Assembly (NCBI GenBank): GCA_002796835.1
Contig: LUGL01000073.1
Location: 74,103 to 135,727 of the forward strand
From: Elainella saxicola E1
GTDB lineage: Bacteria > Cyanobacteriota > Cyanobacteriia > Elainellales > Elainellaceae
DNA length: 61,625 nucleotides
Direction: 5' to 3'
Shown: positions 41,213 to 52,655 of the stretch, in pieces
Position numbering within the stretch: position 1 is the stretch's first letter
Layout of the letters: every line of letters starts with the position of its first letter
The notes under the pieces: model-generated
The model's database searches: none
Told to the model about the DNA's origin: nothing
What the model saw: the letters and a program-made list of their open reading frames with translations, nothing else
Position numbers and translations under genes: made by a program

Positions 41213-41449
41213 CTATGCAGAAATGTTTTTCCCTTCAGCTTCAACACGCAGACTGCCGATGTAAACATATCCATCATATCCATCAACACTGTTGAGATAT
41301 CGGAATAACTGTGCTGAGCCGTTTTTATCTCCTTCCTTGACTTTATGGTCGTCAAACTCCAGAATCCTATATTTCAGACCCTCGACTTCTAAATAGTAAG
41401 TATTCTTATTGCTGTGAAGGGTTCCATTTTGTCTCTCTAAACTCTGCAT
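41213..41449 (-). CDS. Hypothetical small protein, 78 aa
   Basis: This 78-residue protein reads MQSLERQNGTLHSNKNTYYL, then LEVEGLKYRILEFDDHKV and YDGYVYIGSLRVEAEGKNIS. It is rich in charged and aromatic residues, with an alternating strand pattern that suggests a small beta domain. There is no signal peptide. It has a strong AAGGAG ribosome site 4 bases before ATG, which supports that it is a true gene. I do not recognise the family. Confidence 0.7.
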   Translation of the reverse strand: MQSLERQNGTLHSNKNTYYLEVEGLKYRILEFDDHKVKEGDKNGSAQLFRYLNSVDGYDGYVYIGSLRVEAEGKNISA

Positions 41450-42036
41450 ATTACTCCTTGATAAATCAGGACTGGACTTGGCCTTTCGTGGGTTAGAAAC
41501 AGGATTTGCTTACTATCTCAACTATCCAAGTAGAGCGATCGAATAACATCAGCCTAAATCAATGCTTTTGTCAAAACAAAATAAATGGCTGTTGACTAGC
41601 TAAGCATATCTGAAAACTGAATGAATCGAAATAAGTTGAATATTAGCTGAAATGCAGAAGGCACGATATTAAATCCTTCTTCTCGAATTGACCGATCGAT
41701 CTCCAAGGTTTTGGTCTAACCAATCTCATTTTGAGACAAGCCGAATATTTCGAGATAGTTAACTGGTTAACTATTAACTGTAAAACTAAATACAAATTGC
41801 TATTTGCTTAACCTTTATGATTCGCCTAAGTTCACTTTCACCCTTGCCCCAAATCGTTATTGAGGATTCGCGACTAGCTTCAGTTAGGAGTTGAATTGGT
41901 TCGTGGGATCGAAAAATCGTCCCAAGCTTGATTGTGATTGTGATTGTGAAAATTGATTACCTGCCTTAAAGATGCATTAATTTTGCATCGATTGTGCGTT
42001 GTGAACTTTCCGAACATATACTCGGTGGAAAAGTTG
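41450..42036. promoter_or_regulatory. Gap with perfect 20-bp palindrome ATAGTTAAC-TG-GTTAACTAT
   Basis: Within this 590-base gap, 41755-41774 is a perfect inverted repeat with 9-bp arms around TG. A second small palindrome (TCTCATTTTGAGA) lies at about 41734. They are about 270 bases upstream of the DUF3318 gene and 310 bases upstream, on the other strand, of the 78-aa gene. The palindrome is the size expected for a homodimeric regulator. The gap otherwise shows nothing I recognise. Confidence 0.45.
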
Positions 42037-42732
42037 ATGACTCAATCTGTTTTTGCTGCCGTTGAAAACCATGAAATTCAACGGTTGAAATCCTTAATTC
42101 CTGTAGACCTTCAATCTAAGATTGTGGTTGCCCGTTCCAATCGAACAAGGCCAGCCTTAATTACAAGTGAGAAACTAGGCAACCAACAATTTGCGATCGC
42201 GATCGATTTTATTCAATGGGAGCAGTTTTCTCCTCAGCAACGGGATTTACTGTTCTGGCATGAAGTCGCTCGCATTCAAAATCGGGCAATTCCTTCCTTT
42301 CCTTGGGAATTGGCTGTTCTCACTGCTGCCCTGGGTCTAGCGCTGATGGAGGTTACTACCCAAAATTTGTTATTGCTGTCGGTTACTCTGGTTGTGGCTG
42401 GATTGTCAGGCAATCAGCTTTACCAACGTAATCGAGGTGAACATGCTCTGAGAGAAGCAACTGCTGCCGATCAGAGTGCGATCGCTTTTGCCTTGCAATT
42501 TGGCTACTCCTGGTCTGAGGCGACTGCAAGTCTACGCAGCGCTATCCAGCAGTTAGGTAGACAGGCAACACGCAGGATACTCAAGAATAGATATAAGGTG
42601 CGGCTTCAGGTGTTAGAAATTCTTGTCGCCAATCAACCCTCTACCTTGAGAATCTCATCTATAAATATTGAAGAGCACTCTGGGCAAAAGCCACTCTGCA
42701 AACCTGAATCGATCGGCTACTTACAATTCTAA
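42037..42732 (+). CDS. DUF3318-family protein
   Basis: This 231-aa protein has the DUF3318 pattern: MTQSVFAAVENHEIQRLKSL, PVDLQSKIVVARSN, FSPQQRDLLFWHEVARIQN, then two closely spaced hydrophobic segments (WELAVLTAALGLALMEVTTQ and NLLLLSVTLVVAGLSG) and an alanine-rich helix (LREATAADQSAIAFALQFGY). The family is widespread in cyanobacteria, with the FWHEVARIQ segment its best-conserved part. Function unknown. The start is ATG at 42037; the longer frame from 41953 has no ribosome site. Confidence 0.82.
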   Translation: MTQSVFAAVENHEIQRLKSLIPVDLQSKIVVARSNRTRPALITSEKLGNQQFAIAIDFIQWEQFSPQQRDLLFWHEVARIQNRAIPSFPWELAVLTAALGLALMEVTTQNLLLLSVTLVVAGLSGNQLYQRNRGEHALREATAADQSAIAFALQFGYSWSEATASLRSAIQQLGRQATRRILKNRYKVRLQVLEILVANQPSTLRISSINIEEHSGQKPLCKPESIGYLQF

Positions 42733-42800
42733 AATTTTTTCCAGTCCAATCAAGCAAATAAATTCTGCTAAAGCACAGGCATTAGATAAAGTCCATTTCT

Positions 42801-42828
42801 TGTGGAGCAGGCATTTTGCCTGTCCCGC
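42801..42828. repeat. Dispersed GGAGCAGGCATTTTGCCTG palindrome
   Basis: TGTGGAGCAGGCATTTTGCC followed by TGTCCCGC contains the palindrome CAGGCATTTTGCCTG (42808-42822). From memory, this type of sequence (GGAGCAGGCnnnTTGCCTGC) recurs between genes in several filamentous cyanobacteria. It is a probable mobile or structural element rather than a gene-specific signal. Confidence 0.55.
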
Positions 42829-42903
42829 TGGGTGAGGGAACCTATGCCACAATTGATTTGATTCATCATCCTGGCAGCTAATTTATGACATTCACTTGAA
42901 ATG

Positions 42904-42949
42904 ACTGCATAATGGGTAAATCCGACGATTTATCCATTCATTCAGCAGT
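42904..42949 (+). promoter_or_regulatory. Stem-loop in leader of NCS1 permease gene
   Basis: AATGGGTAAATC (42911-42922) pairs with GATTTATCCATT (42927-42938) around a 4-nt loop (CGAC), one mismatch in 12. Outer arms ACTGC (42904-42908) and GCAGT (42945-42949) extend it across internal loops. It lies 154 bases before the permease start. It could be an RNA control element or an operator; there is no T-run for a terminator. Confidence 0.4.
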
Positions 42950-43102
42950 GTTAAATTCAGTAAATTTTAGGTTTGACTTCTGTTTTTTAACCGCTAAAGG
43001 ATTAATTCATTTTTTTATTCATTTTGTGTTGTCAGCTACTAAAAGAAACTTTAGAGTTTCCTTATTCTTAGATGCAATTAATCAGGTTTATTGAGGGGAA
43101 TA

Positions 43103-44755
43103 ATGGCCAGAGATGCAAATGCAACTGCCCGTCTTGAAAAATCCAAGCGGCATTACAATTCATGGGTCGTCAACGAAACGTTAGAGGACTATTCCTTACG
43201 GTATGCACCCCGATCGTTCCGCAAATGGTCTGAATTTACTGTTGCGAATGCTGCCTTAGGGGGTATCTCTTACCTCGCAGACTTCGCGATTGGTGGTTCG
43301 ATCGCCATCAGTTCAGGATTCACCAACTCATTCTGGGCGATTTTGATATCGGCCATCATCATTTTTGTGACTGGCGTGCCTATTTCTTACTACGCCGCTC
43401 GTTACAACATTGATATGGATTTGTTGACGCGAGGGGCAGGGTTTGGCTACATCGGTTCGACACTGACCTCGGTAATTTATGCGTCTTTCTGCTTCATTTT
43501 CTTTGCCCTGGAAGGGGCAATTATGGCTCAAGGGATTGAGCTTTATACAGGTTTACCGCTGGCCTGGGGCTATCTGCTCTGTACTGTTGCCATCTTTCCG
43601 CTGGTGGTGTTTGGCATGACCCTGTTGGCTCAGATGCAGGTGTGGACGCAGCCAATCTGGCTACTGGGAATGTTTGCGCCCTGGATTGCCGTACTGGTGA
43701 AGGATCCCACAGCCTGGACGACATGGACCAGCTTTGCGGGCAAATCGCCGAGCGGCAATGGATTCGATATTCTCTTATGCGCGGCAGGTGCAGGGGTTGC
43801 TTTATCGCTAATCGCCCAAATTGGCGAACAGGTAGACTATTTGCGATTCATGCCTGATCTAACCGAGCGCAACAAAGGTAAATGGTGGACGGCTGTATTA
43901 GCTGCAGGTCCAGGTTGGGTAATTTTAGGGGCATGGAAACAATGGGCCGGTGCATTTTTTACAGCGATTGCCGTTAAAGCCGGAGTCGATATTGCCAAGG
44001 CCAATGAGCCGATCCACATGTATATCGAAGGGTTCAAGGCAATTTTCTCGAATCCAGCCGTTTATATGGCGCTAGCCACCTTATTTATCATTCTGTCTCA
44101 GGTCAAAATTAACGTTACGAATGCTTATTCGGGCTCACTTTCCTGGTCGAACTTCTTTTCCCGATTAACGCACGCCCATCCGGGTCGAGTTGTCTGGTTG
44201 GTATTCCACCTGATCATTGCGTTGACTCTACAAGAACTGGGGGTGTTCAACGTGCTGCTTTGGGTTCTAGGTTTTTACTCTAATGTGGCGATCGCCTGGG
44301 TTGGAGCACTCGTGGCAGATTTGATCATTAACAAGCCTCTTGGGCTAAGTCCTTCTTACATTGAGTTTAAGCGGGCTCACCTATACAACTTCAATCCTGT
44401 TGGATTTGGTTCCATGATGATTGCATCGATTGTATCTGTGATTGCATTCTTCGGGTTAATGGGACCTGCAGCACAGGCCTTCTCCACCTTTATCGCGCTT
44501 GGCTTGGCATTTGTTCTCTCTCCGATTATTGCAGTTATTACCAAAGGCAAGTATTATATTGCCAGAGAAGATGTTCACTTTCGTGACAATCCCAGCGTTG
44601 CTGAACTGACTCAATGTTCAATTTGTGAGTATGAATATGAACGGGAAGATATGGCTTACTGCCCCGTCTATCAAGGTCCCATTTGCTCACTCTGCTGTAG
44701 TCTAGATGCCCAATGCCACGACGCTTGCAAAGCTGCACCAGGAGCATCTGCCTGA
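43103..44755 (+). CDS. NCS1-type permease with eight-cysteine C-terminal tail
   Basis: This 550-aa protein is a 12-helix nucleobase:cation symporter-1 (purine/cytosine permease-like) protein: TLEDYSLRYAPRSFRKW near the N-terminus, LLTRGAGFGYIGST, QVKINVTNAYSGSLSWSNFF and GLSPSYIEFKRAHLYNFNPV. NCS1 members carry nucleobases, hydantoins, allantoin and related compounds with Na+ or H+. After the last helix is a cytoplasmic tail with C505, C508, C520, C528, C531, C532, C538 and C542 (spacing C-x2-C-x11-C-x7-C-x2-CC-x5-C-x3-C), suited to bind zinc or an Fe-S cluster. The same tail occurs in the transporter-kinase at 48780-51605. ATG 43103 has GAGGGG upstream. It lies just before formamidase, so amide or related uptake is a reasonable guess. 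Confidence 0.85.
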   Translation: MARDANATARLEKSKRHYNSWVVNETLEDYSLRYAPRSFRKWSEFTVANAALGGISYLADFAIGGSIAISSGFTNSFWAILISAIIIFVTGVPISYYAARYNIDMDLLTRGAGFGYIGSTLTSVIYASFCFIFFALEGAIMAQGIELYTGLPLAWGYLLCTVAIFPLVVFGMTLLAQMQVWTQPIWLLGMFAPWIAVLVKDPTAWTTWTSFAGKSPSGNGFDILLCAAGAGVALSLIAQIGEQVDYLRFMPDLTERNKGKWWTAVLAAGPGWVILGAWKQWAGAFFTAIAVKAGVDIAKANEPIHMYIEGFKAIFSNPAVYMALATLFIILSQVKINVTNAYSGSLSWSNFFSRLTHAHPGRVVWLVFHLIIALTLQELGVFNVLLWVLGFYSNVAIAWVGALVADLIINKPLGLSPSYIEFKRAHLYNFNPVGFGSMMIASIVSVIAFFGLMGPAAQAFSTFIALGLAFVLSPIIAVITKGKYYIAREDVHFRDNPSVAELTQCSICEYEYEREDMAYCPVYQGPICSLCCSLDAQCHDACKAAPGASA

Positions 44756-44796
44756 GCCGTTGACCTATCTCTGACACCGATAGATTTGAATCATTC

Positions 44797-44821
44797 ACCT
44801 GACAATGAATTCGACTGTCAG
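44797..44821. promoter_or_regulatory. ACCTGACAA / CTGTCAG inverted repeat (candidate operator)
   Basis: CTGACA (44799-44804) and TGTCAG (44816-44821) form an inverted repeat with an 11-base spacer 44 bases after the NCS1 stop. ACCTGACAA occurs here and again at 47494-47502 with its inverse TTGTCAGGT at 47459-47467. A MarR-type output domain is encoded nearby and could bind such a palindrome. This is inference from recurrence alone. Confidence 0.35.
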
Positions 44822-45005
44822 ATCTGATCAACCGATTCTTTTATCGATCGATCTCCATCCAATTCGCTTGCATGGCCTGAGTAAAGTTACCGCAATTCTC
44901 CACCTGGGAGTGCGGCAGCCCCTGCCCCTGCCAGAGTTGCAATCTATCTTTCGAATTTGATGGAGTCATCCCTTGCTCAGACGGTTCTTGAGCCTAATTC
45001 GATAT

Positions 45006-45091
45006 GTTGGTGTATGAAGGCAGGCTGACAGTTAAACGCGGATTGGTTGAACGCTGATTGATGGAGCGCTAGGCCCATACACCAACTTTTT
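45006..45091 (+). promoter_or_regulatory. Attenuator-like leader structure before formamidase
   Basis: Perfect 11-bp arms GTTGGTGTATG (45006-45016) and CATACACCAAC (45076-45086) enclose a 59-nt region with smaller stems (AGCGCT; GAACGC with GCGCT-like parts), and TTTTT follows directly (45087-45091). It lies 43 bases before the fmdA start. Stem followed by T-run is terminator-like, so the element could be a transcription attenuator or an undescribed riboswitch for the amide operon; an ordinary terminator of the NCS1 transcript is the simpler alternative. Confidence 0.45.
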
Positions 45092-45133
45092 CATTTTCAT
45101 CCTCAAGTTTGTTGTTTGCCTGAGAGGACAATT

Positions 45134-46339
45134 ATGCCAAAAACACTCTTCAAAGTTGATCTGACCAAACCGATGGATCAGCAGGAATTACCAGGCCACA
45201 ACCGTTGGCATCCCGATATTCCAGCCGTTGTCTCAGTTAATCCTGGCGAGGTATTTCGGATTGAGTGTAAGGATTGGACTGATGGACAAATCAAAGACAA
45301 TGACGATCCGAGTGACGTTCGGGATGTCGATTTAACCGTTGTTCATGTTCTTAGTGGTCCAATTTGGGTGAATGGCGCACAGCCAGGCGATATTTTAGTC
45401 GTCGATTTGGTTGATATTGGCGCGTTGCAGGGAGACGAATGGGGCTTTACAGGTATCTTTGACAAGAAAAACGGCGGTGGTTTTCTCACCGATCATTTCC
45501 CTGAAGCTGCTAAGGCCATTTGGGATTTTCAGGGCATCTACACCTCTTCCCGTCATATTCCAGGTGTGCGGTTTGCGGGCATTACCCATCCCGGTCTAAT
45601 TGGCTGTGCCCCTTCCCATGAGCTGCTTGCTAAGTGGAACAAGCGGGAAGCTGCACTAATGGCTGAACAACCCGATCTGCGGACCTATGGCACAGGTTTA
45701 GCAGGAGATATTCCCCTGCTTGCAGCTTTGCCCAATCCCCAAAATGCAATTCTGGGCACCCTTGATCCGGCTGAGTACGATCGTGTTGCAGCAGAAGCAG
45801 CCCGAACGGTCCCACCACGCGAGCATGGCGGCAACTGCGACATCAAGAACCTGTCACGCGGCACCCGAATTTACTTCCCGGTATATGTGGAAGGGGCTAA
45901 GCTGTCGATGGGGGATATTCACTTTTCGCAGGGAGATGGCGAAATTTCCTTCTGTGGCGCGATCGAAATGTCGGGCTTCATCGATCTGCATGTGGATATT
46001 ATCAAAGGGGGAATGGAAAAATATGGCATGATCAACCCCATCTTTAAGCCAGGTCCAGTTGAACCACGCTATTCGGAATACCTGGTGTTTGAAGGAATTT
46101 CGGTAGATGAGTTTACCGGCAAGCAATACTTTATGGATGCCCATGTGGCTTACCGTCGGGCTTGCTTAAATGCGATCGAATATCTCAAGAAGTTTGGTTA
46201 CACAGGCGAACAAGCTTATTTACTCTTAAGCTGCGCACCCGTTGAGGGCAGAATCAGTGGCATTGTCGATATCCCAAATGCTTGCTGTACAATTGCCATC
46301 CCAACCGAGATCTTCGACAAAAATATTTTGCCGGTCTAG
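45134..46339 (+). CDS. fmdA: Formamidase/acetamidase
   Basis: This 401-aa enzyme hydrolyses formamide (or short amides) to the acid and ammonia. The FmdA_AmdA pattern is clear: NRWHPDIPAVVSVNPGEVFR, GPIWVNGAQPGDILVVDLVD, HPGLIGCAPSHELLA, GGNCDIKNLSRGTRIYFPVY and SMGDIHFSQGDGEISFCGAIEMSG. Length and motifs match the family from Methylophilus and mycobacteria. It is soluble and cytoplasmic. The start is ATG at 45134 after a GAGAGGA; a longer frame from 45116 is not needed. It follows the NCS1 permease gene by 378 bases and precedes the FmdB zinc-ribbon gene, so the three probably form an amide-uptake-and-use unit. Confidence 0.93.
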   Translation: MPKTLFKVDLTKPMDQQELPGHNRWHPDIPAVVSVNPGEVFRIECKDWTDGQIKDNDDPSDVRDVDLTVVHVLSGPIWVNGAQPGDILVVDLVDIGALQGDEWGFTGIFDKKNGGGFLTDHFPEAAKAIWDFQGIYTSSRHIPGVRFAGITHPGLIGCAPSHELLAKWNKREAALMAEQPDLRTYGTGLAGDIPLLAALPNPQNAILGTLDPAEYDRVAAEAARTVPPREHGGNCDIKNLSRGTRIYFPVYVEGAKLSMGDIHFSQGDGEISFCGAIEMSGFIDLHVDIIKGGMEKYGMINPIFKPGPVEPRYSEYLVFEGISVDEFTGKQYFMDAHVAYRRACLNAIEYLKKFGYTGEQAYLLLSCAPVEGRISGIVDIPNACCTIAIPTEIFDKNILPV

Positions 46340-46359
46340 CCTCGTATTCATTCTGTGAA

Positions 46360-46433
46360 TGTAGGGGTGGAGCATTCCGATAGAAATCGATATCCGTTCT
46401 GAAAAGATCATTTGCTGGATGCTTCCCCCTACA
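46360..46433. repeat. MITE-like palindrome (TGTAGGGG...CCCCTACA) between fmdA and fmdB
   Basis: TGTAGGGGTGGAGCATTCC (46360-46378) and GGATGCTTCCCCCTACA (46417-46433) are imperfect inverted arms around a 38-nt centre. From memory, palindromes of the type TGTAGGGGCGxxGCATTCGG recur widely in cyanobacterial genomes. A related pair, GGGCGTGGCATTCGG and CCGAATGCCGCGCCC, is seen at 61126-61189. Confidence 0.6.
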
Positions 46434-46496
46434 GGATATGAGGTTGATACCAAAAGGGTAATGAAATTGTAGAGATTGATAAGGAGAAGTTCGATC

Positions 46497-46760
46497 GTGC
46501 CGCTTTATGAATTTCGCTGTGATAGCTGTGGCATTTTCGACCTATGGCGCGCTATGGCTGAATCTGATCAGCCTGCCCATTGTCCAACCTGCCAAGAACC
46601 AGGCAAACGCATCTTTTCACCGCCGATGGTCTTATCTGGCTCATTACGGTTGAAGCGAGAAAACCCTGAGCCGCAGCTTGTCAAACGACCTGAACGGGAA
46701 CCCGAAAAACCAAAAGCACAGAGTCATACGGGTGGACGGCCCTGGATGCTCAGCCACTAG
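46497..46760 (+). CDS. fmdB: FmdB-family zinc-ribbon protein
   Basis: This 87-aa protein begins MPLYEFRCDSCGIFDLW and has a CxxC...CxxC zinc ribbon (C9, C12 and C32, C35 approximately, in AHCPTCQEPG), the hallmark of FmdB, first described as a possible regulator beside formamidase. The tail is charged and proline-rich (LKRENPEPQLVKRPEREPEK). GTG at 46497 is the start, with AAGGAG 8 nt upstream. A strong terminator follows at 46817-46857. FmdB is thought to act in control of fmdA expression; that role is not proven. Confidence 0.9.
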   Translation: MPLYEFRCDSCGIFDLWRAMAESDQPAHCPTCQEPGKRIFSPPMVLSGSLRLKRENPEPQLVKRPEREPEKPKAQSHTGGRPWMLSH

Positions 46761-46816
46761 GGAATTTGCCCAACTTGACTCGATCGCTCATCAAGAGATA
46801 TCCAGCTCACCGGGTG

Positions 46817-46857
46817 ATGAATGATGGTATGTCATCAATCATTCATTGCCTTTTTTT
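46817..46857 (+). terminator. Rho-independent terminator after fmdB
   Basis: ATGAATGAT (46817-46825) pairs with ATCATTCAT (46838-46846), followed by TGCC and seven T (46851-46857). It ends the fmdA-fmdB transcript just before the convergent gene at 46889-47332. Confidence 0.85.
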
Positions 46858-46888
46858 ATAGAGTTTTTCCCATGGTTTTTCACGCTGC

Positions 46889-47332
46889 TCAAGAGGTCTC
46901 TTCATCCTGAAATCTGATGTGCAAGTCCGATCGACACTCACATTTTGATAATCCGAGTCGAGCATTTTCAAGTTCCTGAGTTTCTTGAGACAGCACTTCC
47001 AGCTTTTTCAACAACCATTGCCAGAAACTAGGCAACTTTAAGGGAGCTTCTGCCAGTTCTAACAGCTCCAGGGCCGATCGATAGGCACGAATGGAATGCT
47101 GACATTCCCCTTTGCGGTACTTTGACATCTGCTGCACGGCGCGCTGTTTTAATTTGTGCTGAATGCCGATCGCTTTTGATTCCAGGCAATCGGGGCAGAC
47201 ATCTCCGTAAATTAAGCCCTGATCATTACAAAGGAGGGTGCGGATTCTGCCGACTTCAAAGGTGCGCTGGCAGGCAATACAGGGCAATTTGGGTGAGCAC
47301 GTTCCTAAGGTGCACTCAAGTTGAATCTTCAT
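46889..47332 (-). CDS. Hypothetical protein with cysteine pairs, 147 aa
   Basis: This 147-aa protein has an N-terminal zinc-ribbon-like region (C18 and C21 in LPCIACQRTF, then C47 and C50 in VCPDCLES) followed by two long helices (LKQRAVQQMSKYRKG and YRSALELLELAEAPL) and a coiled-coil-like segment. It has no signal peptide. I recall no named family. It lies downstream, on the same strand, of the receiver-MarR gene with a gap of about 310 bases. Whether it belongs to that signalling unit is unclear. Confidence 0.55.
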   Translation of the reverse strand: MKIQLECTLGTCSPKLPCIACQRTFEVGRIRTLLCNDQGLIYGDVCPDCLESKAIGIQHKLKQRAVQQMSKYRKGECQHSIRAYRSALELLELAEAPLKLPSFWQWLLKKLEVLSQETQELENARLGLSKCECRSDLHIRFQDEETS

Positions 47333-47458
47333 GGTTAGATCACCAAAAAATTTTTTGAAGAGGGAATTTATAGTGCCTTTAATTCGAGCTTAGCGAATCT
47401 TTTCTGTATCGTGACCAACCTTTTCGCGGTTTTTAACATCAAAAAATATATCTACATG

Positions 47459-47502
47459 TTGTCAGGTCAGGGTTTCCGGATATTTTGTGAATTACCTGAC
47501 AA
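47459..47502. promoter_or_regulatory. TTGTCAGGT / ACCTGACAA inverted repeat
   Basis: Perfect 9-bp arms TTGTCAGGT (47459-47467) and ACCTGACAA (47494-47502), 26-nt spacer, lie in the 309-base gap between the receiver-MarR gene and the 147-aa gene. It may be a terminator for the former (the minus strand ends in a short T-rich stretch) or a regulator site, since the same 9-mer recurs at 44797-44805. The rest of the gap is AT-rich without further features. Confidence 0.45.
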
Positions 47503-47641
47503 TTTTCTTGCTTCAGAATTTTTTAAGGATGGCTCGAAAGTCAGGCCACCGTTTGTCAAATGGGGCGATCGATCAAGTTTGGATTGAAAATTCTTCTGGA
47601 TCTGGATCTCAGCATCTCATGCTTGATCGTCCACCTATCCC

Positions 47642-48787
47642 TCAGTCCACCCGATCGTCTGATTCCATCAACTGCACCGCTCTCAACGCTAACTCAGCTA
47701 ACTTCTTGCGTTCCGGCTCCTCTAATGCAGTCATCAGCTCAGTGAATTCATATTGGTCTTGCGGCACCACCCAATCGAGAAACTGTTGGCCTGTTGCAGT
47801 CAGTCTCACAATCAAGGCACGCCGATCGGTCGGATCTGGGTCTCGTTCGACGTAGCCTTCTTGCTCTAAACTATCCAGCAAGCCCGTCATGGCCGCTCTG
47901 GTGACGCCACAATGTTTGGCCAAGGCAGAAGGGCTGGCATATTGTTCCGGTTCACCGCTCAAATAGACCAGAACCGCCAGCTTCGTTTGGGAAATGCCTA
48001 ATTTGGCGCAATGTTCATCCGTTGCCCGCAGCACCATACGAGCAATCCTGGTCACGACCGACATCGACTGAAATGCATCGACCTGATTAGCCCCATCATT
48101 CGATCGTGCTAGTCCGATGATCAGATGGCTGAGTGCTTCAATTTTTTCTGGTGTGGCAAAAGTGGGTTGCGTAGTTTGTAAGCCCTGAATCGACTGCTCG
48201 AACATTCGAATTAACGTTGAGAAGGATCGTAACGCAGTCACAACAGTGATGAACAGCTTTTTTGAAGTAAGTTCTGTTTTGGTTTTGTAGTCATCGATGC
48301 CATAGTCTACGACCACTAGATCTTCAGGCGCACGACCCGGTTGTCCAGTGCGGATAATAATTCGAATTAATTGGTTGCCTAATTCTTCTCGAATGTATTG
48401 CACCAATTGCAATCCAGCATCTTCAGTTTCCATTACCACATCTACAAAAGCGATCGCAATATCGGGATGGGCTTGAATGAGCTGCTTGGCTTGCTGGGCA
48501 GAATAGGCACTAATAAACGAGAGCGGTTTGTTTTCAAATAAGAAATCTCGCAGCGCTAATTTTGTGACGTTATGGACTTCCACATCATCATCAACAATCA
48601 GGATTTTCCAGCTTTTTAGAGCGGGTGGGCGATCGGCTTCTGAAGCCAGCTTTCCCTCTTCAATCAGGTTCTCTTCCTCGTCCTGAAATAACAGCTCGTC
48701 CTGCAAATCCTGCTCACTCACAATTTCTGAGTTCTGCATTGCCGTCCCCTCCTCAACCCTCGCGCGCTCATTCTCTAACTCAGTCAT
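47642..48787 (-). CDS. Response regulator with MarR-type output domain
   Basis: This 381-aa protein has an acidic N-terminal extension (about 1-55), then a receiver domain (about 58-185; D66-D68 acidic pocket, phosphoacceptor D116 in AFVDVVME, T147, and K168/K170 in DYKTKTELTSKKLF) and a C-terminal MarR-type winged helix (about 215-381; ASPSALAKHCGVTRAAMTGL then GYVERDPDPTDRRALIVRL). Receivers with the DYKTKTELTSKKLF motif usually carry HD-type or DUF3369 domains. A MarR output is rare among response regulators. ATG at 48787 overlaps the stop of the transporter-kinase by 8 nt (ATGACTGA), so it is its cognate partner. MarR proteins usually repress nearby operons; the NCS1-fmdA-fmdB genes are natural candidates, but this is inferred. 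Confidence 0.9.
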   Translation of the reverse strand: MTELENERARVEEGTAMQNSEIVSEQDLQDELLFQDEEENLIEEGKLASEADRPPALKSWKILIVDDDVEVHNVTKLALRDFLFENKPLSFISAYSAQQAKQLIQAHPDIAIAFVDVVMETEDAGLQLVQYIREELGNQLIRIIIRTGQPGRAPEDLVVVDYGIDDYKTKTELTSKKLFITVVTALRSFSTLIRMFEQSIQGLQTTQPTFATPEKIEALSHLIIGLARSNDGANQVDAFQSMSVVTRIARMVLRATDEHCAKLGISQTKLAVLVYLSGEPEQYASPSALAKHCGVTRAAMTGLLDSLEQEGYVERDPDPTDRRALIVRLTATGQQFLDWVVPQDQYEFTELMTALEEPERKKLAELALRAVQLMESDDRVD

Positions 48788-51605
48788 GGACAGCCAGTCC
48801 AATCTGGGGCAGCTTGATCACAAACCTTGTTCCTGCACCCACTTCACTATGACATTGAATCGTGCCAGCTAATTTCTGAGTCACCAAATTGTAAACAATA
48901 TGTAGCCCTAATCCGCTACCGCCCTGCCCCCGTTTGGTTGTGAAAAAGGGATCAAAAATTTTGCTAAGGTTCTTGGCAGGAATGCCTTTGCCGTCATCGG
49001 CATACTCAAAAATCAGCTCATGCAGATGTTGATAAAAGGCGATCGCAATACAGCCCTCGTCTTCTGGGCCATAGGCATGAACCAAGGAGTTCATCACCAA
49101 ATTCGTGACGATTTGGGAGAACACGCCGGGATAGCTGTCGAGGTACAGGTCTGGATCAACGATGATTTCGACCTGATGGCCTGTGTTTTTTAATTTAGGA
49201 CTGAGCTGCAACAAGACTTCTTCCAGGTACAGCTTCACATTGAACGATCGCTTGGAACCACTTGACTGATCGACAGCTACCTGTTTAAAGCTTTGAATCA
49301 GCTCAGCTGCCCGGTTCAGATTGGTAAGCGTCATGCGGCTACTTTCTTGGGCCAACTCCAGAAACTTCTTCAAATCCGATCGTTTCACCAGATTTTTTTG
49401 AAATAGCTCCGCAAAATCATCCGACTTTTCCATCAACAGGGAAACGGCTGTGACGCTATTGCCGATCGGCGTGTTGATTTCATGAGCAATACCGGCCACC
49501 AGACCACCTAGCGCTGCCATCTTTTCAGTTTGAATCAACTGGGCTTCCGCTTTCTGCAAATTGGTCAGCGTTTGCTCTAACTGTTCCGCTTTTTCTTGAA
49601 GTTGGGCCTCTGCTTGCTGGCGCTCTTTCACTTCCTGTTGCAACAGCAAATATTGCTTATCCAACTCTTCCTCGGCCAGCTCGCGGCTTTCTTGTGTCAG
49701 GATCAGGCCCCAAGTTCCAATCCCAATCAGGACCAGAAAGGCAGCATAGACTTCGATCAGCGTGGCAGCAACTTGCTGGGTGGCAGCTGTCAAAGGACGA
49801 GGCGGCATCACGACCTGCTGATAATACACAAAGCCTAGAACAATCCCGACCACGCTCGACAGAGATAAGAAGATCAGCAAATAGCGCAGAATTTTTGTCC
49901 CGATCTGGGGCGATAGCTTGCTTTGTAACAACGTTTTAGAAGGCATCGCTCCAACGTTCGGAAAATGATCCTGCATTCCAGACGTTAACATTTTACAAGC
50001 ATCATCGCAACGTGCATCCAAACTGCAACAGAGCGAGCAGATTGATCCTGCATAGGCTGGACAAAAAGCGGCATCTTGCGGTTCATAACGTTGCTCACAG
50101 ATACAGCAATTTGTTTCACCCGTAGACGAGTGGCCTACCGCATCTTTGCGCGCCAGGTAATATTTTCCTTTCGTCAAGAACGCGATCGCAGGTGCTAACA
50201 CAAAGGCCAGAATCAGGGCAATAAACGGCGCAAACGCCTTAGCAAACGGACCAAATACGCCTAAAAAAGCCAAAATAGCCACCACCGAAGAGGCAACCAT
50301 CGAGCCAAATCCCACCGGATTAAAGTTATAGAGATAGGCGCGTTTGAACTCAATATGGGGTGGACTCAGCCCCAAGGATTTGTTGATTACAAGATCGGCC
50401 ACTAAGGCTCCTATCCAGGCGATCGCCACATTTGAATAGAGTCCCAATACGGCTTCCAGCGTTGAGAATACGCCCAATTCCATCAGCAAGAGGGCGATCG
50501 CCACATTAAAGACCAGCCACACGACGCGACCGGGATGGCTATGGGTTAAGCGAGAAAAGAAGTTCGACCAGGCCAGCGATCCAGCATAGGCGTTGGTGAC
50601 ATTAATTTTGATTTGGGAGACGACAATAAACAGCGTGGTCACAGCCAGGACAACTTCTGGATTGGAAAACACATACTCAAAGCCCGTCAGATACATTTGG
50701 GTTGGCTCTTTGGCTTTAGCTAAGTTCACGCCATGACTGACGGCCAATGAGGCCAGAAATGCCCCGCCTAACTGTTTGCTGCACCCTAAAATAATCCAGC
50801 CGGGACCTGCCAGCACCAAAGCCGACCACCAACGACGCCGATTGTTTGCTGTTTTCTCTGGCAGAAATCGCAGGTAATCGACCTGTTCGCCAATTTGCGA
50901 GATTAAGGAGAAAGAAACTGTGGCAGCCGCTCCAAATAAGAGCGGATCGAACCCATTGCCTTCGCTGGCATTACCTGTAAAGTGAATCCAGTTCGTCAGC
51001 GCTTCTGGTTCTTTATGCAAAATAAAGCCATAGGGAATGACCATCAGCACCAACCAAAGCGGCTGAGTCCAGAGCTGAAGCTGATTGATTAAGGTCACCC
51101 CAAAGAAAACAAGCGGAATAATGATGAGCGAACAAAAAATATAGCCGATCGCTAATGGTAAGTGGAAATAAAGTTCTAGCGCCTGGGCCATAATCGCTGC
51201 CTCTAGCGCAAAGAAAATAAACGTAAATGAAGCGTAGATGAGTGAAGTGACAGTTGAACCAATGTAGCCGAATCCTGCTCCTCGCGTTAAAAGATCAATA
51301 TCAACATTATATTTGGCGCTATAGTAGGCGATCGGTAAACCCGTCAGAAAAATAATTGCCCCGACAACGATAATTGCCCAAAAGGAATTCGTAAACCCAT
51401 AGCTGATCACCAGAGAGCCACCGATCGCCTCCAGCGCTAAAAAGGAAAGCCCACCAATTGCCGTGTTGGCAACTAACCATTCCGGCCACTTGCGAAAGGA
51501 TTTGGGGGCAAAGCGCAGGGCATAGTCTTCGAGTGTTTCGGTTGCAACCCAGGTATTGTAATCCCGCCGTTCTTTAACAATTTTTAAGTTGGGAAGAGTT
51601 GCCAT
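48780..51605 (-). CDS. NCS1-type permease fused to histidine kinase
   Basis: This 941-aa protein is a transporter-kinase hybrid. Residues 1-485 form a 12-helix NCS1 permease (TLEDYALRFAPKSFRKW, LLTRGAGFGYIGST, NVTNAYAGSLAWSNFFS) highly similar to the separate permease at 43103-44755. Residues 500-537 hold the same eight-cysteine tail with identical spacing. Two further helices (about 572-595 and 612-637) and a coiled coil (640-695) lead to a histidine kinase core: phosphoacceptor H708 in AHEINTPIG, ATP-binding boxes N840-region, DDGKGIP (870-876) and GGSGLGL (895-901). The motifs look intact in both halves. CbrA-type proteins (an SLC5 transporter fused to a kinase) are the known precedent; an NCS1 version is unfamiliar to me. 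It should sense its substrate either by binding or by transport and signal to the overlapping receiver-MarR protein. Confidence 0.92.
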   Translation of the reverse strand: MATLPNLKIVKERRDYNTWVATETLEDYALRFAPKSFRKWPEWLVANTAIGGLSFLALEAIGGSLVISYGFTNSFWAIIVVGAIIFLTGLPIAYYSAKYNVDIDLLTRGAGFGYIGSTVTSLIYASFTFIFFALEAAIMAQALELYFHLPLAIGYIFCSLIIIPLVFFGVTLINQLQLWTQPLWLVLMVIPYGFILHKEPEALTNWIHFTGNASEGNGFDPLLFGAAATVSFSLISQIGEQVDYLRFLPEKTANNRRRWWSALVLAGPGWIILGCSKQLGGAFLASLAVSHGVNLAKAKEPTQMYLTGFEYVFSNPEVVLAVTTLFIVVSQIKINVTNAYAGSLAWSNFFSRLTHSHPGRVVWLVFNVAIALLLMELGVFSTLEAVLGLYSNVAIAWIGALVADLVINKSLGLSPPHIEFKRAYLYNFNPVGFGSMVASSVVAILAFLGVFGPFAKAFAPFIALILAFVLAPAIAFLTKGKYYLARKDAVGHSSTGETNCCICEQRYEPQDAAFCPAYAGSICSLCCSLDARCDDACKMLTSGMQDHFPNVGAMPSKTLLQSKLSPQIGTKILRYLLIFLSLSSVVGIVLGFVYYQQVVMPPRPLTAATQQVAATLIEVYAAFLVLIGIGTWGLILTQESRELAEEELDKQYLLLQQEVKERQQAEAQLQEKAEQLEQTLTNLQKAEAQLIQTEKMAALGGLVAGIAHEINTPIGNSVTAVSLLMEKSDDFAELFQKNLVKRSDLKKFLELAQESSRMTLTNLNRAAELIQSFKQVAVDQSSGSKRSFNVKLYLEEVLLQLSPKLKNTGHQVEIIVDPDLYLDSYPGVFSQIVTNLVMNSLVHAYGPEDEGCIAIAFYQHLHELIFEYADDGKGIPAKNLSKIFDPFFTTKRGQGGSGLGLHIVYNLVTQKLAGTIQCHSEVGAGTRFVIKLPQIGLAVHD

Positions 51606-51686: not shown

Positions 51687-52064
51687 TTATTCACTGCCCA
51701 TTTCCTGCTCATTTGGATTGGTTAGATCTAGTTGAGGAGTGGCGGTTTCAGGAACATATTTCAATCCCCAAGCGATCATAGATTTTAGTATGGGCCGCAG
51801 TGTTTGACCGGCTTCTGTTAGTGAATAATTCATCCGACGCGAATGGTTACTGTAGGGTCGCTTCTGCACCAGACCTGCTGCCTCTAGCTGCTTTAATCGA
51901 TCGGCCAAAATATTCGTTGAAATTCCTTCTGGTGATTCCAGAAACTCTTCAAACCGTTGTTTGCTCATAAACATCATGTCGCGGACGACCAGTAAAGTCC
52001 ATCGATCGCCCAAAATATCTAACGTACAGGCAATAGGACAACAAGAGCGGCGAGACGAAGTCAT
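51687..52064 (-). CDS. HxlR-family transcriptional regulator
   Basis: This 125-aa protein has the HxlR winged-helix pattern: CPIACTLDILGDRWTLLVVR, FEEFLESPEGISTNILADRL, LEAAGLVQKRPYSNHSRR and MNYSLTEAGQTLRPIL. N-terminal cysteines in SCCPIAC may sense redox or electrophiles, as in YodB-type members. The start is ATG at 52064; a TTG nine bases upstream is the alternative. It is transcribed away from a cupin gene (52179-52655), and the 115 bases between hold both promoters, so the regulator probably controls the cupin gene. Confidence 0.92.
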   Translation of the reverse strand: MTSSRRSCCPIACTLDILGDRWTLLVVRDMMFMSKQRFEEFLESPEGISTNILADRLKQLEAAGLVQKRPYSNHSRRMNYSLTEAGQTLRPILKSMIAWGLKYVPETATPQLDLTNPNEQEMGSE

Positions 52065-52178
52065 GGGGATCAAGCAAGAAATAATGAATTACTTGCATTT
52101 TACAAGCTGAATTGATAAACTGATTTCAAATTTTAGATTGCAAGTTAAAAGTTACTATCTCGATGGAGATCACATTCA

Positions 52179-52655
52179 ATGAGTTCCTTGCCAATAACTC
52201 CCCGTATCGGACCAAACTTTGCAACGGCCCACCTAGGCACTTTTGCCGATCTACGCCAATATTGCTTCACCGCCAGTGATGTTCCGCTCAAGCTCGAAGG
52301 CAAGGTTTTTCTTCGGCAGTTGCTTCAGCTTACCAGCAGTGAAATTTCCCTGAATAATCTGCCACCCCAAACTTCTATCCCCTTCTATCACAAACACCAT
52401 CTCAACGAAGAAATCTATATTTTTATTGAGGGCATGGGCGAATTTCAGGTGGATGGGCAAATCTTTTCGATTCAACCTGGTACGATCGTTCGCGTCGATC
52501 CGGAAGGTGAACGTTGCCTGCGTAATTTATCGCTGAGTGAAGATCTCTGCTGGATTACGATTCAAGCCAGAGCGGACAGTTATTCTGGTTATACAATTGA
52601 AGACGGAATTGGAATCCCCAAGCCAGTTCAATGGAACAGCATTGCTGAACAATAA
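52179..52655 (+). CDS. Cupin-domain protein
   Basis: This 158-aa protein has a single cupin barrel with motif 1 in HKHHLNEEIYIFIEGMGEF and motif 2-like residues in IQPGTIVRVDPEG. The metal ligands of the first motif (H-H-E) are present; the second-motif histidine is not obvious. Cupins of this kind may be oxygenases, isomerases or binding proteins. GGAG lies upstream of ATG. It is divergent from the HxlR regulator, which suggests response to a quinone, aldehyde or oxidant. The exact function is open. Confidence 0.88.
   Translation: MSSLPITPRIGPNFATAHLGTFADLRQYCFTASDVPLKLEGKVFLRQLLQLTSSEISLNNLPPQTSIPFYHKHHLNEEIYIFIEGMGEFQVDGQIFSIQPGTIVRVDPEGERCLRNLSLSEDLCWITIQARADSYSGYTIEDGIGIPKPVQWNSIAEQ

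Follow-up and report, generated by a model that had tools for sequence, protein, structure and literature searches.

To our knowledge, few sensors that join a transporter to a kinase are known. CbrA of Pseudomonas, an SLC5-STAC histidine kinase, carries a transporter-fold membrane domain on a histidine kinase and is tied to solute use (excerpt of PMC13022988), and Ks-Amt5 of Kuenenia is described as an ammonium transporter turned sensor on a HisKA-type kinase, with no STAC domain and with transport lost (excerpt of PMC5764959). Here we analyse a related arrangement in Elainella saxicola E1, within a window of 61,625 nucleotides (the whole stretch of DNA that was analysed, on contig LUGL01000073.1; all coordinates are given in window numbering). 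In this window, a stand-alone permease gene and the formamidase genes fmdA and fmdB lie beside the gene of a permease-histidine kinase and an overlapping gene encoding a response regulator with a receiver domain and a MarR output domain. The best overall explanation of this cluster, which we consider likely, is a transporter-derived amide sensor kinase with a MarR-type regulator acting beside NtcA, which governs the response to nitrogen starvation.

The window kinase resembles CbrA in bearing a transporter-fold membrane domain, but neither it nor the stand-alone permease has a Pfam match to the SSF transporter domain or to the ammonium transporter domain. In contrast to CbrA, it has an NCS1-like transporter part that bears a cysteine tail, and its partner is a receiver-MarR protein; the partner of CbrA is a regulator of the CbrB type. 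It also differs from Ks-Amt5, as the excerpt describes that protein, in having an NCS1-like rather than an Amt fold and in being adjoined by a stand-alone relative and a formamidase gene. The consulted part of a structural survey of transporter-receptor links makes no mention of NCS1 (PMC11109136). Within the open-licence literature, no account was recognised of the NCS1-type or permease-kinase fusion, the receiver-MarR regulator or the formamide permease of this system, nor of two-component control of formamidase, nitrile hydratase or amidase in it. Since CbrA and Ks-Amt5 exist, the system is a variant of known transporter-kinase sensors; what is new here is the different transporter fold, the receiver-MarR partner and the proposed promoter.

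The gene cluster and its putative sensor pair

An earlier note on this DNA, made from the sequence alone, had grouped a permease, FmdA, FmdB, a permease-kinase and a receiver-MarR protein, and all five were found as open frames in the window. The genes of the cluster are as follows:

41953..42732, + strand: DUF3318 gene (PF11780), the first gene after the composite promoter described below; alternative ATG at 42037
43103..44755, + strand: stand-alone NCS1-like permease with an eight-cysteine C-terminal tail (open frame, fold, tail conservation)
45131..46339, + strand: fmdA, formamidase (NCBIfam equivalog, match to a solved formamidase)
46500..46760, + strand: fmdB, FmdB-family zinc-ribbon protein (zinc-ribbon model above cut-off)
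46889..47332, - strand: 147-residue open reading frame (ORF) with no assigned function; relatives lie beside permease, fmdA or fmdB in L057, L059, L060 and L130
47642..48802, - strand: response regulator, receiver and MarR output; TTG start, with an ATG at 48787
48780..51605, - strand: permease-histidine kinase, 941 residues (Pfam domains, conserved residues, cysteine tail)
49992..50108, - strand: cysteine tail within the kinase gene (alignment of relatives)

The overlap of the regulator gene with the kinase gene, also stated in the earlier note, amounts to 23 nt from the TTG start or 8 nt from the ATG, and the cysteine tail that the note ascribed to both permease and kinase is present in each, with eight cysteines. 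The unit had been placed at 42904-51605; its parts do lie there, and the proposed control region (41755-41821) sits upstream of that start. The DUF3318 gene, the NtcA box and the separation between sensor and transporter permeases were absent from the note.

The identity of the window FmdA as a formamidase is secure from its sequence, which passed the NCBIfam formamidase equivalog NF045496 (676 bits against a cut-off of 500) and matched the solved formamidase 2wkn over its full length (residues 2-401; E 1.3e-168). FmdB scored 51.7 with the zinc-ribbon model, against a cut-off of 31.3.

The stand-alone permease is 65% identical to the permease module of the kinase; neither matched any Pfam family even at E 10, and a sequence search of the permease against solved structures returned nothing of note. 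A structure model of the permease, built from 55 relatives (predicted local distance difference test, pLDDT, 87; predicted template modelling score, pTM, 0.88), found its best fold matches in CodB (Foldseek E 2e-9; VIA Z 34.0) and Mhp1 (Z 30.0), the next family reaching Z 24.6. Alignment of the permease profile with E. coli CodB using hhalign was weak (E 1.3e-4, probability 54, 205 columns). The Pfam family name for NCS1 transporters is Transp_cyt_pur. Because the permease has no Pfam match, the NCS1 label given in the earlier note rests on fold: modelling indicates that the permease is NCS1 in this sense, and the label does not extend to Pfam membership. The permease thus resembles the NCS1 transporters CodB and Mhp1 in fold, but differs from them in its 15-16% identity over that fold, its lack of a Pfam match, its cysteine tail and its amide gene context. 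The eight-cysteine tail is kept in all 64 stand-alone relatives and in 39 of 41 fused ones, the remaining two being gapped there.

The kinase is composed of a permease module (residues 1 to ~490), the cysteine tail (500-538), a membrane helix (~567-599), and HisKA (699-757) and HATPase (830-934) domains. Its HATPase_c match exceeded the Pfam cut-off and its HisKA match fell below it (19.8 vs 26.9); in the regulator, MarR_2 was above the cut-off and Response_reg just below (29.5 vs 30.2 bits). Kinase residues H708, N835, D870, G874, G898 and G900, which we take to be the phospho-acceptor histidine and the ATP boxes, are invariant in 13 sequences, as are, in nine sequences, regulator residues D71, D72, D121, T152 and K175, presumably the acidic pair, the acceptor aspartate, the threonine and the lysine. 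Judged by these residues, the two proteins have the makings of a two-component pair, and phosphotransfer between them is predicted. The full-length kinase model is of low confidence (pLDDT 51, pTM 0.31) and provides a hint for the linker only: it suggests helices at 567-599 and 606-672, in the place that the four-helix STAC domain takes up in SLC5-STAC kinases.

A proposed composite promoter

Three elements upstream of the DUF3318 gene form a composite promoter that reads toward DUF3318, the permease, fmdA and fmdB:

41755..41774, no strand: palindrome ATAGTTAA-N4-TTAACTAT, 20 bp, the proposed operator of the receiver-MarR regulator; 16 of 16 positions, the only perfect copy in the 8.7-Mb genome
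41780..41793, + strand: NtcA box GTAAAACTAAATAC (GTAN8TAC), its centre 22 bp from the palindrome centre
41816..41821, + strand: -10 box TATGAT (TAN3T), 22 nt after the NtcA box

Among 36 genomes of the same order, eight passed the threshold for the regulator, E. saxicola included, and the seven others carry kinase and regulator together. Counting G322 as one with CCP2 (G292), which has the same gene positions, and adding G293 and G294 yields 10 distinct regulator genomes. The 12-base core of the palindrome, AGTTAA-N4-TTAACT, was first read from the gap between regulator and amidase genes in two loci (L038, L040) and was then found exactly in the window; the window and L129, the G293 locus, were already known when it was lengthened to 16 bases. 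The six regulator loci fetched after this extension present all 16 positions in five cases (G333, G334, G335, G340, G341) and 14 in G318, always between the regulator and the amidase gene. Across the 10 regulator genomes, the palindrome retains 13 to 16 of 16 positions and is perfect in seven, and in eight of them an aliphatic amidase gene, adjacent to the kinase pair, follows the promoter. In L129, the palindrome (13/16) lies between the divergent kinase gene and DUF3318-permease-fmdA.

Searches of whole genomes returned seven perfect palindromes in the 10 regulator genomes, all seven within the cluster, and one (in G325) in 14 other genomes counted as lacking the regulator, 13 of them by the absence of a regulator match and G309 by its kinase locus alone. 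Among the loci scanned at the time of the extension (1.07 Mb, nearly all cyanobacterial, with the non-cyanobacterial L053 and L054 included and some loci overlapping), none outside the regulator group came within two mismatches and eight had three. Elsewhere, the palindromes with two mismatches that were inspected preceded unrelated genes and were put down to chance. The 12-base core at up to one mismatch is rarer than its reversed control; since loose matches are not enriched, the signal resides in the perfect sites and their place.

The GTAN8TAC motif was first seen in an alignment of the eight amidase gaps, most flanks of which are not conserved, with the window and L129 serving as tests outside it. 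An exact GTAN8TAC followed 22 nt later by TAN3T is present in all 10 regulator loci, and the distance between the centres of palindrome and box is 22 bp in eight of these, 20 in L040 and 30 in L171. Even with a looser palindrome, the composite was found only in regulator loci among 189 sequences (2.73 Mb), and 300 simulated windows contained none. Because the window holds four exact GTAN8TAC against three expected, the NtcA box alone means little, and it is its place beside the palindrome that counts.

GTAN8TAC is an NtcA site, and canonical NtcA-activated promoters of cyanobacteria also bear the TAN3T -10 box seen in the window (excerpt of PMC3898017); unlike those promoters, as the excerpt presents them, the one described here has a 20-bp palindrome ahead of the NtcA box, their centres 20, 22 or 30 bp apart. 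With class II defined by a box centred ~41.5 nt before the transcription start, GTAN8TAC and TAN3T stand at matching spacing, and a class II NtcA promoter is predicted, with transcription expected to begin near 41828. Another palindrome of different sequence, GAAACT-N4-AGTTTC (~43046-43061, just before the permease), was rejected, with no copies at zero or one mismatch in 21 other upstream regions. A promoter and terminator scan of 41400-43150 gave about as many sites as shuffled sequences did. Of 22 cyanobacterial loci, three have an NtcA box with TAN3T in the 600 nt directly upstream of fmdA; the window is not one of the three.

Since its proposed site precedes the NtcA box and is nearly in helical phase with it, the regulator is more likely an activator than a repressor, and it probably acts as an activator beside NtcA. 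Most MarR proteins are repressors, and the MarR output domain together with a palindromic site near the promoter would also fit a repressor that phosphorylation releases from the palindrome. We consider this alternative unlikely, if still worth keeping in view: the palindrome is centred ~63 nt before the expected start and spaced 20, 22 or 30 bp from the NtcA box, which is an activator position, and a repressor bound there would need to hinder NtcA.

The exact 12-base core occurs at only two places in the E. saxicola genome, this cluster and contig 31. The contig 31 copy matches the full palindrome at 15 of 16 positions; it has genes for cobalt uptake on one side and a nitrile hydratase operon on the other (region L176:6392-14120). 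The alpha subunit of the hydratase passes its equivalog (305 vs 250 bits), and the beta subunit is split in two ORFs; on the side of the cobalt energy-coupling factor transporter, CbiQ passes (162 vs 112), a CobW-like GTPase does not reach the cut-off for CobW, and CbiM is an assignment by eye alone. Nitrile hydratase converts nitriles to amides, and one class of the enzyme requires cobalt. The E. saxicola genome holds no intact relative of the promoter-bearing amidase (the best is 33% identical, with an internal stop), so that FmdA seems to fill its place there. In four loci (L038, L040, L171, L173) the amidase has an odd partner downstream, tubulin-like genes (weak PF13809/PF00091 matches in the one scanned) accompanied by small conserved ORFs.

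Distribution and gene neighbours

The earlier note would have abandoned its model had the kinase pair and fmdAB failed to co-occur in other genomes. Among 292 cyanobacterial genomes, the permease module is present in 12, stand-alone only in E. saxicola and fused (frames of at least 963 residues) in the 11 others. FmdA, counted at a full-length identity of at least 81%, is present in 19 of the 46 genomes that gave a match at all, a broken copy in G247 being left out, and seven genomes have both. Module and FmdA therefore occur together more often than by chance: FmdA is found in 7 of the 12 permease-module genomes, five lacking it, as against 12 of the 280 others (Fisher p 1e-6; 9e-6 with E. 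saxicola removed), and by genus in 5 of 9 against 8 of 107 (p 8e-4; 4e-3 with E. saxicola removed). With up to six candidates scored per genome, the full receiver-MarR regulator was found in this sample only in E. saxicola, and the 12 other genomes above threshold match its receiver part alone. FmdA is present in 7 of the 10 regulator genomes (E. saxicola, G292, G293 and G294, plus G334, G335 and G341 in the fetched stretch), the three remaining ones having been searched in the fetched stretch alone, and in L129 the kinase pair lies beside permease-fmdA. Control of the permease-fmdA block by the kinase pair, as the note had proposed, finds strong support in this comparison and in a promoter element shared between this cluster, G293 and the amidase gene in eight others.

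To characterise the neighbourhood of the permease family, the best 80 of 129 relatives were kept in a scan of named genomes. Counts cover the rows from named loci, 58 of the 64 stand-alone and 21 of the 41 fused sequences in the tree described below; identical sequences were removed, the unnamed copy of a pair sometimes being retained. Between 0 and 34 residues (191 in one case) or at least 397 follow the cysteine tail, a sharp split but for rows cut by a contig end, of which L078:5525 and L051 were assigned to the fused group by hand. Within 4 kb, 33 of the 58 stand-alone permeases have fmdA, an AmiE/AmiF-type amidase gene or ureC (20, 21 and 8, respectively), compared with 2 of 58 at 6-10 kb, a control zone smaller than the near zone as some loci are shorter than 10 kb.

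The order permease-fmdA-fmdB recurs in cyanobacteria (L055, L056, L057, L059) and in Acidithiobacillus; fmdA is divergent from the permease gene in Alicyclobacillus, and Heyndrickxia has amidase-permease-formamidase-urease. In Acidocella, Acidiphilium, Acidimangrovimonas and Salinisphaera, fmdA has a fused permease as its neighbour. A stand-alone permease lies nearby, as does a regulator, these regulators all falling into one cluster; at these loci, the regulator scanned (L066) is a receiver-LuxR protein and both fusions scanned (L066, L067) are hybrid kinases. In Methyloprofundus (L158:8761-13425), the permease module is fused to PAS, GAF, GGDEF and EAL domains, combining the same input domain with a cyclic di-GMP output. 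Streptomyces loci often have, ahead of the permease, a protein that bears a UrtA-like ligand domain (L081:8130-9743 and like genes); the first ~200 residues of the L081 protein are unassigned. The DUF3318 gene accompanies the permease-fmdA block in several cyanobacteria, its relatives upstream of the permease lying on the same strand in L129, L057 and L059 and on the opposite strand in L055, L056 and L060.

For the "amide or nucleobase-like" solute of the earlier note, these neighbours favour the amide, with formamidase, aliphatic amidase, urease and urea-type ATP-binding cassette genes nearby and a second operator by nitrile hydratase; the nucleobase, which the fold permits, found no support among neighbours. 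Urea and amides are alike in size and shape, and the sensed solute might instead be urea, or the family chiefly a urea system in which amide genes are secondary. The eight stand-alone permeases adjoining ureC are consistent with this, as are UrtA-like genes beside the kinase pair in six loci (L040, L168, L169, L170, L173, L174). Nevertheless, fmdA and amidase counts in the same 58 speak for amides, the composite promoter precedes the amidase or DUF3318-permease-fmdA and the second palindrome adjoins nitrile hydratase, with none by urease, and no urease was seen among the ten window proteins scanned; we regard a urea system as rather improbable.

Two further features were observed in the window. 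An inverted repeat, GTTGGTGTATG / CATACACCAAC (45007-45017 and 45077-45087), lies between the permease and fmdA and, by eye, is perhaps a small mobile repeat. An HxlR-type regulator gene (51687-52073, - strand) shares the strand of the kinase gene, 81 nt upstream of it, and diverges from a cupin gene (52179-52655, + strand).

Proposed mechanism and a possible receptor lineage

In the mechanism that we favour, the NCS1-like input domain of the kinase would bind a short-chain amide, either formamide or acetamide or one closely related, and the signal would pass via the membrane helix and a coiled-coil linker to the kinase, which, to judge from gene overlap and conserved residues, would phosphorylate the receiver-MarR regulator. 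The regulator would bind the 20-bp palindrome, as co-occurrence and footprint suggest, and the spacing would place it roughly two turns of the helix ahead of NtcA on a promoter of class II, where the amide signal and nitrogen hunger would be combined. The output in E. saxicola would be DUF3318-permease-fmdA-fmdB, by which amides would be taken up and hydrolysed to ammonium; the second copy, between cobalt-uptake and nitrile hydratase genes, would serve amide supply from nitriles, and in eight relatives the same promoter would drive an aliphatic amidase.

Several observations weigh against this mechanism. It is gene neighbours alone that point to the ligand, 12 of the 19 FmdA genomes lack the permease module, and 13 of the 21 fused rows in named loci, all of them cyanobacterial, have no amide gene within 4 kb. 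The kinase domains of these neighbour-less rows that were compared are 30-36% identical to that of the window kinase, with the exception of L046, L047 and L049, each of which has one short matched stretch at 46-48%. In Stenomitos (G309, L153:8602-13087), the orthologous permease-kinase is followed by a receiver-kinase and not by a receiver-MarR protein. The window promoter lies ~1.3 kb before the permease, with DUF3318 between them and gaps of 370, 375 and 160 nt along the putative shared transcript, and the NtcA box of the second copy has one mismatch, box and -10 pointing at the cobalt genes. Palindromes with up to two mismatches number 23 in the 10 regulator genomes, compared with 34 for a reversed control pattern; since eight other loci also reach 13/16, the L129 palindrome rests on its adjoining NtcA box; G333, G334 and G335 belong to one genus. 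The perfect palindrome of G325 (L179:7551-7570), a genome of the same genus as ours without the regulator, has no NtcA box and lies before a gene that, by eye, is polyphosphate-kinase-like.

This last site, along with a 15/16 near copy that immediately precedes an ordinary MarR-like gene of G292, would also suit a palindrome that belongs to another MarR-type protein and merely travels with the gene pair. The presence of the composite with the NtcA box in 10 of 10 regulator genomes, and at no other locus examined, makes this quite improbable. That the genes are chance neighbours and the kinase pair senses something unrelated to fmdA, as the 13 fused rows without amide genes might suggest, is very hard to reconcile with the co-occurrence, the shared promoter, the kinase pair by permease-fmdA in L129 and the fused permease by fmdA in Proteobacteria, and we give it almost no credence.

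Returning to the amide sensor, we inferred the phylogeny of 105 permease modules with a quick method (no bootstrap, unrooted), which gives no order of sensor and transporter. A single branch (Shimodaira-Hasegawa-like approximate likelihood ratio test 99) parts the 41 fused from the 64 stand-alone modules, so the window permease and kinase are not the product of a recent local duplication. Twelve columns are fixed (at least 90%) in stand-alone modules and nearly absent (at most 10%) in fused ones. Among the separating residues, Ser343 and Ser347 are serine in 64 of 64 stand-alone modules and alanine in 40 and 41 of the 41 fused modules, respectively, and Asp60 is aspartate in 64 of 64 and leucine in 38 of 41. 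In the permease model, the two serines lie in a long helix (318-356) and Asp60 adjoins the break that separates helix 44-53 from helix 59-101. We propose that these helices correspond to TM8 and TM1 of the fold, which carry the Na2 cation site. The receptor lineage would thereby have lost the proposed coupling-cation residues, with serines 343 and 347 changed to alanine and Asp60 mostly to leucine, and its module would have become joined to kinases, to hybrid kinases and to a GGDEF-EAL protein.

Put together, an NCS1-like family unknown to Pfam may hold a lineage turned dedicated amide receptor, which in cyanobacteria would compute "amide present AND nitrogen short" through a receiver-MarR regulator and an NtcA promoter, a joint reading that we judge to be evenly poised. 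Stand-alone and fused forms of one permease family a few kb apart, together with residues by which the two groups can be told apart almost completely, would make a transporter-to-receptor change testable by mutation. Furthermore, an orphan sensor family can now be given a probable class of ligand, a proposed operator and a small regulon, the predicted promoter allows the joint action of NtcA and a two-component regulator to be put to the test, and nitriles and amides are indicated as nitrogen sources of cyanobacteria.

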